Shown here: positions 5,735 through 10,012 of the stretch, piece after piece
How positions within the stretch are numbered: position 1 is the first letter of the stretch
Layout: each line of letters opens with the position of its first letter
Source: Candidatus Binatia bacterium
Lineage (GTDB): Bacteria > Desulfobacterota_B > Binatia > UBA9968 > JAJDTQ01
NCBI GenBank assembly: GCA_022827045.1
Contig: JAJDTQ010000062.1
Coordinates: 1 to 38,427, forward strand
Direction of reading: 5' to 3'
DNA: 38,427 nucleotides
Notes under the pieces: model-generated
Database searches by the model: none
Told to the model about the DNA's origin: nothing
What the model saw: the letters and a program-made list of their open reading frames with translations, nothing else
Position numbers and translations under genes: made by a program

Positions 5735-5763
5735 GTCTGAACCGCCCCGGATTTCCCGGAGAC
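5735..5763 (+). repeat. Left terminal inverted repeat of the IS3 element with target duplication
   Basis: GTC (5735-5737) is the target duplication, followed by the 26-bp terminal repeat beginning TGAACCGCCCCGGATTTCCC. It pairs with 8665-8690 with two mismatches. Confidence 0.88.
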
Positions 5764-5932
5764 TCTATTCTTTGCCGTGAAACAGCTCGGGGATTGAGAC
5801 GAGCGGGGACAGGGCAACGCCGAGGTTGCGAAGTTGGCTGAGGAGACCGGTGCCGGTTGCCGCAGGAACGAGCGGGAGGGCATCCCCGATGTGGCCCGAG
5901 GTCGTCCCGTGTGGCATGAGAGGCGGAGTGGG

Positions 5933-7183
5933 TCAGGCGGCCATGGGCTGGGGAGGGGCGGGGACAATGTAGCCGTAGCGGCGGAGCATTCGGATCCAGC
6001 GCGGGGCGTTGCGTTTGACCATCAGGGCCTCGTAATCGGCGGTGCGGTCGTAGTAGGGCTGGCCGGTCTTGAGCACGACATAGATGATGCGCAGCATTTT
6101 GTGGGCGCCGGCGACGATGGCGCGTTTGTAGCCGCGCCGGGCAGCCAGGGCGCGGTGGTGAGCCCCGAACTGGCATCCTTTGGTTCGTGCGGCGCCATGG
6201 GCGCACTCGACCAGGGTGGCGCGCAAGGTGGTGGAGCCTCTGCGGGTGCGCGCCATGCGGCGTTTGCCGGCGCTTTCGTTGTTGCCCGGGCAAAGCCCGG
6301 CCCAGGCCGCCAGGGACTCCTTGGAGCCAAACGCGTCGATGTCGGGACCGAGTTCGATCAGGATGGTACGGGCGGAATGGCGGTCGACGCCGGGAATGGT
6401 GGTCAGCAGGCGAAGCGGTGCTTCCCAAGGCGTCATCTGCTCGTCGATCTGTCGGGTGTAGGCGTCGATGCGCGTACCGATGGCATCATGCTCCTTCAAC
6501 AGATCGCCGAGCATGAAGCGGTCGTTTGGGCTCAGGTTCAGGCGCAGCGCCTCGCCAAGACCCTCCAGCTTGTGCGCCACATGACGGGTGAGCGAGGCCA
6601 GGAGGACCTCACGCGCGGTGCCGGCCGCCAGCCCGTCGAGGAGGGTCCGGCCGTTGGTCCCGAAGATGTCGCTGAGGATGCCGCCGATGCGCACACCTGC
6701 GCGGTCGATGAGCTTCTGAACGCGGTTGCGCACGGTGGAGCGCTGTCGCACCAGCACCCGACGCTGGCGACTCAACCAGCGCAACTCCCGGAACGGCGGT
6801 GGCGGCACATGACTCGGCGTGCACAGCCCAAACTGACAGACGCAGGCCAGCCACAGGCTGTCGGCCACGTCGGTCTTGCGCCCCTTCAACTGCTTCACCT
6901 GCTGGGCATGAACCAGAATCGCCTTGATCCCGGCCCGCTCCAGAGCCTCGAAGGGCGCCATCCAGTACACTCCGGTCCCTTCCATCACGGCCGCCTCAAC
7001 CCCGTACCCCCTCAACCACCCGGCCATCGCTTCCAGCGCTCTCGGCGCCGTGGCAAAAACCCGCGTCTCCACCACCGGCTCGCCCCCGCCCTCGCACAAC
7101 CGCACCGTGGCCGTGATTTGCATCTTGTGAACGTCCAGTCCCGCCGCCCGCGGGTACAACACATGCAGGCCTTTGGTCTCCAT
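5933..7183 (-). CDS. IS110-family transposase (DEDD recombinase)
   Basis: 416-residue, apparently intact IS110-family recombinase. The N-terminal RuvC-like DEDD domain shows D17 (GLDVHKMQ), E68 (VMEGTGVYW) and D105/D108 (KTDVADSLWLA). The C-terminal Tnp domain has LTTIPGVDRHSARTILIE and PGNNESAGKRR, where the conserved serine of the family sits. The ATG at 7183 is preceded by a purine-rich site (AAGAGGGGG). The family mobilises DNA as a circle or synaptic complex, guided by a bridge RNA encoded in the noncoding end. The upstream region here (7184-7520) fits that role. No frameshift or premature stop was seen, so the element could still be active. Confidence 0.93.
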   Translation of the reverse strand: METKGLHVLYPRAAGLDVHKMQITATVRLCEGGGEPVVETRVFATAPRALEAMAGWLRGYGVEAAVMEGTGVYWMAPFEALERAGIKAILVHAQQVKQLKGRKTDVADSLWLACVCQFGLCTPSHVPPPPFRELRWLSRQRRVLVRQRSTVRNRVQKLIDRAGVRIGGILSDIFGTNGRTLLDGLAAGTAREVLLASLTRHVAHKLEGLGEALRLNLSPNDRFMLGDLLKEHDAIGTRIDAYTRQIDEQMTPWEAPLRLLTTIPGVDRHSARTILIELGPDIDAFGSKESLAAWAGLCPGNNESAGKRRMARTRRGSTTLRATLVECAHGAARTKGCQFGAHHRALAARRGYKRAIVAGAHKMLRIIYVVLKTGQPYYDRTADYEALMVKRNAPRWIRMLRRYGYIVPAPPQPMAA

Positions 7184-7420
7184 CGCTCTGCCCCCTCTTG
7201 CGGTTGGGGCCGCAACCCACTACGGTCGCAGCGTGCCATCGTCAAGGGGGTGGCGGGGATAACGGTCGGAAAGACACACATCCGCGAAGCGGATGCGGTT
7301 CGTTTTGCCGCGCGTCCACGGCTACAGGCCGGGCACAATACGGGGTGCGGAGCCGACCGCCGGAAGCAGTTTGAGAACGGGGTGCAAACCACCACTAAGT
7401 TGGCGCTCTCCGATCCCCGC
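7184..7420 (-). ncRNA. Candidate IS110 bridge RNA upstream of the transposase
   Basis: In the IS110 group the 5' noncoding end encodes a bridge RNA with a target loop followed by a donor loop. Here, reading the - strand, a candidate target guide lies at 7376-7370: its + strand form TTTGAGA equals the junction at 7521-7527. A candidate donor guide lies at 7312-7304: its + strand form TTTGCCGCG matches the element end TTTGCCGTG at 5771-5779, the one difference being a possible G.U pair. Both start with the same TTTG core. A hairpin follows each guide: GCGG/CCGC at 7347-7360, and CATCCGC-GAA-GCGGATG at 7279-7295. Right-side guides are not convincing (only UAUU, from 7337-7340, for the target side). 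The RNA ends are unknown. Confidence 0.6.
7198..7215 (-). other. Hairpin next to the transposase ribosome site
   Basis: TTGCGG-TTGGGG-CCGCAA forms a 6-bp stem directly upstream of the purine-rich ribosome site of the IS110 transposase. It could mark the 3' part of the bridge RNA or restrain transposase translation; neither can be decided from sequence. Confidence 0.4.
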
Positions 7421-7537
7421 CGCCACCTTCACCACACTGCCACCAAGCCATCCACTTCGGTAGTCGCATCCACTCCCCCCTGTTTCATCCCACGGGGCGG
7501 CACGGCCCAGGCCATGGGCGTTTGAGAGGATGGGGTC

Positions 7538-8650
<1,113 letters not shown>

Positions 8651-8664
8651 ACTCAAACAAATCC

Positions 8665-8693
8665 GTCTCCGGTAAACCCGGGGCGGTTCAGTC
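8665..8693 (+). repeat. Right terminal inverted repeat of the IS3 element with target duplication
   Basis: The element ends ...CCCGGGGCGGTTCA at 8690 and is followed by GTC (8691-8693), matching the GTC left of the element. The terminal repeat is complementary to 5738-5763 at 24 of 26 positions. Confidence 0.88.
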
Positions 8694-8767: not shown

Positions 8768-9973
8768 CTATTCCTGAAATCCCGTTGGGTCCAACTCATC
8801 GTAGTTGTATCCGAACGCAACGTGGTCCAGGACATCAATGGGCTTATAAGTTTCTGCCTCTGCATCAGGGATCAGTTTTGAGTCCTTACGGTTTGCGTCG
8901 GATTCTGACGCATCCCATGGCCACATGACATTCTCAAGATTGTGCCGATCTTTCGCTGCCCCACGCGCATACACTGCGTCGGGGGCCGTGTGCGCTTTGT
9001 CGGACTCGTCCCAGAAATAGTCTGTGGCAAGTTGGTCGGCTGGATACGCTTTTCCAGGGTTTTGACTAAGCCACTGATTCTTCATCAATTGCTGCCATTT
9101 GGACCACATTCTGTCGACATTGCAGTGCAAAAACATGAAGAAAGGATCGTTTACGGCTGTCGCGAAGCTCCTTTGATCGCCACCGAGGCGGACATGCGCC
9201 GCTGCGTGTGGTATGCCCTCGAAGGCAGGTTGAAACAAGCGATAGTCCCTTTTTCTAAGAGCCTCATTGAATGCTTCTGGATCAACGAACCGAGTGTCCA
9301 GGGAGAACTCTCCTCGATGTATACCCACTCTCTCGGTAACGGGACCAAACAACGCCGTATAACCCGGAAGGGTCCACGTCTTTTCAGTGCCATCCTCGCC
9401 ACGCCATGTTGGTTTCACAACCCCATTTGTTCCAAAAAAGTCGTCCCTCCAGATCCGAGAGTTGTCTCTTTCGTCCACGTTGGCGCTTGTGTAATCCCAA
9501 TAAGGAAGTGTAACCGTTTCGTACTTTTGGTCCGACTGCTGAAGTTCAAGTTCGAATTTGCGCAGGAAAACTCGATGCCATGCAAAGAACGCCGGACCGG
9601 AATGACCAAGATTGTTCGTAAACCCGTGAAATTTTATGTACTTATCATACTCGCCTCGTTCCTTGAGGAGAAACACGGCACCCCGAAGATTGTCCCTTTC
9701 GGCGTCAGAAAGTTCGGCAAGATTGCGCCGAATGTCAAGGTTCCCTGGATTCCGAAGTAGAATTTCGGAGGAATCAAGCGCCGACTGGGTGTCAACCACC
9801 GCACGCGCCAACTCGGCAGGTGAAGTGAACTCTCCGAAGGCCTGTGGGGACGAGAACGAAGAGGCGTCTTGAGTCGATTCCACTGTTATTCGCTGCCCAT
9901 TGATCTTGATCTCCAACTGGTCCGTTCCCACGATCTCAATTCGATTTCCCTTGTGTATTGTTGTAGTACTCAT
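8768..9973 (-). CDS. Tyrosinase-family copper oxidase with N-terminal MelC1-like segment
   Basis: 401-residue type-3 copper protein. I start it at the ATG at 9973, 5 bases after a strong AAGGAGG site. CuA ligands are H116, H124 and H133 (HSGPAFFAWHRVFL); CuB ligands are H256, H260 (GIPHAAAHVRLGG) and H283 (DPFFMFLHCNVDRMW). The helix IRRNLAELSDAERDNLRGAV at 81-100 is typical of the domain start. Residues 6-63 (KGNRI ... LEIKINGQRITV ... TSPAELARAVVD) resemble the Streptomyces copper chaperone MelC1, here apparently fused in cis. The residue after the first CuB histidine is Ala rather than the Asn often seen in true tyrosinases, so diphenolase activity may prevail. No signal peptide is seen. 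GC is about 53% in sampled lines, against about 70% next door, so it was probably acquired. Confidence 0.88.
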   Translation of the reverse strand: MSTTTIHKGNRIEIVGTDQLEIKINGQRITVESTQDASSFSSPQAFGEFTSPAELARAVVDTQSALDSSEILLRNPGNLDIRRNLAELSDAERDNLRGAVFLLKERGEYDKYIKFHGFTNNLGHSGPAFFAWHRVFLRKFELELQQSDQKYETVTLPYWDYTSANVDERDNSRIWRDDFFGTNGVVKPTWRGEDGTEKTWTLPGYTALFGPVTERVGIHRGEFSLDTRFVDPEAFNEALRKRDYRLFQPAFEGIPHAAAHVRLGGDQRSFATAVNDPFFMFLHCNVDRMWSKWQQLMKNQWLSQNPGKAYPADQLATDYFWDESDKAHTAPDAVYARGAAKDRHNLENVMWPWDASESDANRKDSKLIPDAEAETYKPIDVLDHVAFGYNYDELDPTGFQE

Positions 9974-10012
9974 AAATTCCTCCTTGCGTCGTGAACACGG
10001 CCGGCTCGCCAC

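Follow-up and report, generated by a model that had tools for sequence, protein, structure and literature searches.

Bridge RNAs, a mechanism class known since 2024, are programmable recombination tools. In the sections of PMC11208158 that describe it, the RNA of IS621 consists of two successive loops, each made up of a stem, a left guide, a stem-loop and a right guide. The portion of PMC11208160 dealing with IS1111 elements reports donor-binding bases in a multiloop for many of their bridge RNAs, and part of PMC11187229 gives the repeats of IS110-type elements as absent, short or imperfect. We analysed an IS110-group insertion sequence nested within an IS3-family element of a Candidatus Binatia bacterium, on a stretch of 38,427 nucleotides (contig JAJDTQ010000062.1 of assembly GCA_022827045.1) that is referred to as the window and whose forward-strand positions are used throughout.

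The leader upstream of the recombinase gene very probably carries the IS110 element's own bridge RNA (a probability of roughly 93 % by our estimate); comparison with relatives shows its left guides, an AA core and a conserved fold, which is probably nested. This agrees with the original prediction, made from the letters of the window, that the leader holds a bridge RNA whose guide is still readable against the site it used, a proposal now supported by covariation of the left guides together with a conserved fold. The features on which this reading turns are:

5772..7523, minus strand: IS110-group insertion sequence including both AA core copies (junctions, empty-site alleles)
5772-5773 and 7522-7523: AA core copies of the IS110 element (junctions)
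5933..7183, minus strand: DEDD/serine recombinase of 416 amino acids (Pfam DEDD_Tnp_IS110 and Transposase_20)
7371..7377, minus strand: left target guide UUCUCAA, with the core AA at 7371-7372 (covariation with left flanks)
7524..7528, minus strand: left target bases CTCTC, proposed partner of the left target guide (junctions, flank covariation, empty sites)
7304..7312, minus strand: left donor guide CGCGGCAAA (covariation with element right ends)

Covariation of the left guides with insertion sites and element ends

A single scan of genome contigs identified 21 loci encoding a relative, and whole-genome searches added others; relatives were found in 4 of 58 genomes, and order-level searches gave 2/200 and 1/147. 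Many more are represented by protein sequences alone. Guides were compared with flanks in 17 insertions in which both the left flank and the left guide slot could be read; these carry 11 distinct guides, several are fragments and the gene of L066 has an internal stop. This count omits L008, which shares its guide and transposon target with L006, L010, with no recognisable leader, L011 and L015, in which the RNA is partly or wholly deleted, L043, whose left flank lies past the contig, L014, L017, L018 and L019, which are without a left end, L028 and L029, which are ~40 % identical and have a different leader, and duplicate locus identifiers of the same copies.

The flank base at -1 matched the guide in 17/17 insertions, with all four bases represented (0.38 for swapped pairs), and mean matches of 0.97 at -2 and 0.79 at -3 compare with 0.42 and 0.26 for swapped pairs. 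The observed sum was reached by none of 20,000 shuffles, which ignore descent (p = 5e-5), and this value holds when each of the 11 distinct guides is given one vote. Each 5-nt stretch of 14 leaders was also set against stretches of the 17 left flanks on both strands, with the guide register free and the core position of each flank set by eye. The slot abutting the core ranked first of 2,640 registers (z 7.6), the runner-up (z 5.8) lay on the same diagonal and the best off-diagonal register reached z 3.4. The flanks of homologous copies do, then, covary with the 7370-7376 segment, as the original prediction had implied they should. Within the window itself, the proposed pairing of CTCTC with the left target guide comprises four Watson-Crick pairs and one U.G.

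The left donor guide covaries with the end of the element. In the nine elements with both ends, it agrees with its own right end at 49 of 54 positions, wobbles being counted as halves, where shuffles give 43.9 (p = 7.5e-4); the information comes from A/G changes at -3 and C/T changes at -1.

Both strings on which the prediction was built are present. TCTCAAA is found on the minus strand at 7370-7376 and again at 7521-7527, and CGCGGCAAA (minus strand, 7304-7312) matches the element end CACGGCAAA (minus strand, 5771-5779) with one G for A, permitting a G.T pair. Dinucleotide shuffles of the 337-nt leader (3,000) contained TCTCAAA in 0.27 % of cases, CACGGCAAA, one wobble being allowed, in 0.97 % and the two strings together in none. 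The seven letters had been read as a match to the target, but only TCTC is target-specific, AA being the core and the final A coming from the element. TTTG, proposed as the core, does occur at both junctions (5771-5774 and 7521-7524), but the right junctions of the relatives L003, L004, L005, L014 and L043 part immediately past AA, and the shared core is therefore AA (TT on the plus strand) and not TTTG.

A search of 20 genomes for the joined IS3 site gave 17 rows, which reduce to 15 different uninterrupted IS3-like places across the junction once two repeats are set aside. The joined site is exact in four of them (L069, L077, L078 and L090, in G001 and G005) while the remaining 11 show one or more changes near the junction. 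Since uninterrupted IS3-like copies carry the joined site, the bases beside the IS110 element are the target's own. L006 and L008, two insertions of one relative whose left guide is CCTTG-AA, interrupt a transposon of G060, part of which matches Pfam DDE_Tnp_1 at 1.6e-5; the joined site, CCTTGAAAT, is present in 10 of the 11 uninterrupted copies listed. These two insertions fall in a multi-copy DDE_Tnp_1 transposase gene, at conserved-looking EVYFKEA codons (L093:1257-1598). One guide is common to L001, L002 and L003, whose left flanks end in CCCC, TCTC and CCTC, respectively. L002 has the same left guide and lies at the same IS3 base as the IS110 element studied here, their recombinases being 60 % identical.

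Predicted fold of the leader RNA

The leader RNA and its parts were placed as follows:

7249..7427, minus strand: predicted bridge RNA of ~179 nt (RNAalifold on 14 leaders; single-sequence fold)
7413-7427 and 7249-7260, minus strand: strands of the outer helix P1 (RNAalifold)
7353..7361, minus strand: 5′ strand of helix P2 (hand alignment, helix searches)
7261..7269, minus strand: 3′ strand of helix P2 (hand alignment, helix searches)
7314..7336, minus strand: hairpin SL_A, between the 5-nt slot and the donor guide (RNAalifold, compensatory pairs)
7277..7297, minus strand: hairpin SL_B (single-sequence fold; a hairpin in the same place in relatives by eye; outside the RNAalifold consensus)
7337..7341, minus strand: variable 5-nt slot GUAUU after a conserved CCCC, candidate position of the right target guide (varies between clades)
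7270..7276, minus strand: UGUCUUU, candidate position of the right donor guide

Folded as a single sequence, the leader RNA scores better than each of its 200 shuffles (z -2.97). RNAalifold, run on a MAFFT alignment of 14 leaders that includes the element studied, returned P1, a 5′ hairpin and SL_A, and at 15 of its 28 pairs at least one sequence is changed on both sides. A further helix, P2, was missed by RNAalifold; it is formed by the linker that follows the left target guide and the strand that follows SL_B, and when aligned by hand, 94 of its 97 positions are paired, compared to 59.3 in shuffles (p = 5e-5, 11 helices). A search for the best ungapped helix also favours the P2 strands on average (20.5 against 14.5 for swapped strands in 15 leaders), as did a repeat of the search in 10 leaders (22.0 against 16.5). 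The end of the element thus holds a structured noncoding RNA conserved among relatives, which the original prediction had expected of the leader. A search of Rfam with E up to 1 found no family in the leader.

P2 leaves the left target guide outside and takes in the 5-nt slot, SL_A, the donor guide and SL_B. Each of the two guide-like matches had been proposed to be followed by its own hairpin. The bases of the first of these hairpins (7347-7360) make up most of one P2 strand (7353-7361 in the hand alignment), and because what was claimed as a hairpin is one strand of a long-range helix the RNA looks nested. The second (7279-7295) appears in the single-sequence fold and, by eye, in relatives, but is not reported by RNAalifold on the MAFFT alignment. 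We have accordingly replaced the arrangement of two loops and two hairpins with a nested model, in which P2 probably parts the left target guide from the rest of the RNA and surrounds the donor half. In 10 leaders no support was obtained for the layout of the IS621 type within the IS110 group, in which two loops follow one another and each has its own closing stem.

The element, its ends and its IS3 host

The remaining features of the element and its surroundings are:

7480..7487, minus strand: left arm of a subterminal inverted repeat, TGAAACAG
5778..5785, minus strand: right arm of this repeat, CTGTTTCA, 4 nt from the core
5738..8690, plus strand: host IS3-family element (terminal repeats, HTH_Tnp_1 and rve, ALIL pseudoknot)

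The recombinase has the DEDD RuvC-like domain and the Transposase_20 domain with catalytic serine of the IS110 family, and the residues D17, E68, D105, D108 and S304 are all present in an alignment of 10 proteins. Its frame is open, and the protein resembles that of IS621, which was its one match among solved structures in a search of the PDB; the phmmer alignment with IS621 8wt6 spans E68, D105, D108 and the serine stretch, D17 lying outside. The left end of the element is ~338 nt and the right end ~159 nt in length, with the RNA upstream of the recombinase gene as in the IS110 group.

At the right end the subterminal repeat is separated from the core by 4 nt, at the left end by 34-39 nt. It is not absent or limited to 2-3 bp, as would be expected of the IS110 group, in any of nine elements, reaching 8/8 in four, 7 in two and 6 in three, counts that are without a shuffled control. 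The repeat differs between clades, and the left arms of L004, L005 and L009 fit the right end of another element better than their own. Relatives with a readable left end also keep a CATG 4-5 nt to the right of the core (7512-7521) and a CCCCG box ahead of the left arm. At L009:1942-2100 the right end of a relative adjoins the decayed left end of a second related element, an end-to-end arrangement that a tandem or circle insertion may have left behind.

The terminal repeats of the IS3 host start at 5738 and end at 8690 and its orfA begins at 7538, the IS110 element having inserted between the left terminal repeat and orfA. An ALIL pseudoknot, the IS3-type frameshift signal, is found in the host at 7816-7922 (76.8 bits). 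The host is adjoined by a 414-amino-acid open frame (8768-10012) that by eye resembles tyrosinase.

Outside these loci, a loose DNA pattern gave 4 matches in 395 genomes of the phylum, compared to 3 for the reversed control pattern, and 18 stretches in viruses, five of which were inspected by eye and showed no related leader. No recombinase relative was found by tblastn in these genome or viral loci. In plasmids, five DNA stretches matched in part, over 8-10 % of the element, and tblastn at 1e-80 gave no match. The recombinase has viral relatives with no more than 40 % identity, which were left out of the comparisons.

Alternative readings and known systems

In the leader read as a bridge RNA, the comparison shows that the variable bases of the left target guide UUCUCAA track the left side of the insertion site and the left donor guide CGCGGCAA the right end of the element, both guides containing the AA core. 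By analogy with IS621, the RNA would be transcribed from the circular form and bind the recombinase, bringing the circle's RE-LE junction into line with the target, and strands would be exchanged at AA. Such a guide would have sent the IS110 element into the leader of the IS3 element.

Several observations weigh against this reading. The guide-target match falls to 0.44 at -4 (0.43 in swaps), 0.47 at -5 (0.24 in swaps) and just 0.12 at -6, and there are mismatches at -3 in L016, L020 and L066, the last with the internal stop in its gene. The core registers were set by eye, most shakily for L026, which has a run of A, and for L034. The 17 insertions form eight groups by eye, some of them related, which the shuffles do not correct for, and several relatives are fragments or are truncated by contig ends. 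Donor mismatches occur at -5 in L009 and L043 and at -6 in L001 and L066, and the count of RNAalifold pairs is without a shuffled control. Nor did the right-hand guides give a signal: the 5-nt slot, compared with right flanks at eight offsets in 11 sites, gave p of at least 0.17 everywhere, a scan of right flanks in eight leaders found nothing in 2,544 registers per window length at two lengths, and the right donor guide, tried in many registers across 13 leaders, reached at best an uncorrected p of 0.0027, which is not significant. Such tests, on eight to thirteen leaders, are of low power. The doubt already voiced over the right-hand guides, then seen only as UAUU from 7337-7340, therefore stands; they may be weak, short or placed elsewhere, and no case could be made for them. 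UUGU, which can be fitted to an AnAA right flank, was considered as a right target guide and dropped because its GU belongs to the SL_A hairpin.

The copies of target and element end in the leader could instead function at the DNA level, the recombinase perhaps binding them as decoy attachment sites. Both matches are short and contain AA, so that DNA alone could explain the similarity in one element; however, the slots hold fixed positions in a fold that compensatory changes have preserved, and the left slot varies with a foreign target and not only with the element, which makes this explanation very improbable. That the RNA is a cis-regulator of transposase expression, matching target and end by chance, would fit its position directly upstream of the gene, and the lack of an Rfam match is neutral in this respect, but the joint absence of both strings from the shuffled leaders and the strong covariation across relatives, the flank test and register scan having already disfavoured it, leave it scarcely credible. 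A further alternative concerns the fold only and is compatible with a bridge RNA: an ordinary IS621-like fold, with P2 an artefact of the alignment or a second way of folding. P2 was both identified and aligned manually, requires a bulge in L009 and L043 and an internal mismatch in L006, and in these three leaders the automatic search picks other helices. Only 6 of 15 leaders (L026, L001, L004, L005, L020 and L066) beat every swap with another group, and the helix found automatically for L020 differs from the hand-aligned P2. The P2 strands nevertheless outscore swapped ones on average and pair almost throughout, whereas IS621-like closing stems score no higher than their swapped counterparts (15.1 against 15.1 and 15.6 against 16.1, 10 leaders), and we consider this alternative fold unlikely.

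We read the element as one of the bridge-RNA type within the IS110 family: covariation demonstrates its left guides, and its scaffold is probably unlike that of IS621. The two share a DEDD and serine recombinase, an RNA in the long left end, and left target and donor guides that include a 2-nt core and permit a G.T pair. They differ in the core, which is AA here and CT in IS621, in the right guides, which are undetectable here, and in a probable nested P2 multiloop in place of the two successive loops given for IS621 in the relevant parts of PMC11208160 and PMC11208158. Judged by the papers found, what may be new is the variant fold, the AA core and the lack of a right-guide signal, although a similar fold may already be among the six other bridge RNAs figured in PMC11208160. 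A natural set with a probably different fold, an AA core and apparently one dominant guide would reveal which parts of the scaffold are dispensable, and two elements with recombinases just 60 % identical, the same guide and the same IS3 base are a clean natural example.

Like ISEc21, an IS110-type element with a seekRNA, the element has an upstream noncoding region and targets a transposon, ISEc21 being described in part of PMC11187229 as targeting a conserved part of IS3 transposons. Unlike ISEc21, the insertion here is in the IS3 leader between terminal repeat and orfA, and that of the relative L006 is in a DDE_Tnp_1 gene. The subterminal repeat of 6-8 bp exceeds the 2-3 bp reported for the IS110 group; subterminal inverted repeats, of 7-17 bp, are also reported for the IS1111 group, both figures being from PMC11208160. 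In contrast to the IS1111 group, however, the RNA is upstream of the recombinase gene and not in the right end downstream of it, and the left arm of the repeat stands 34-39 nt from the core. Tentatively, and with less than even odds, these elements may represent a lineage of bridge RNAs whose scaffold has been rearranged into nested helices P1 and P2 with a donor multiloop. In such a lineage the choice of target would rest on a single left guide of ~5-7 nt that includes the AA core, the right guides having been lost or reduced to a fixed A-rich preference. By the position of its RNA and by its end repeats it would fall between the IS110 and IS1111 types, and it would have settled more than once on guides against other transposons.
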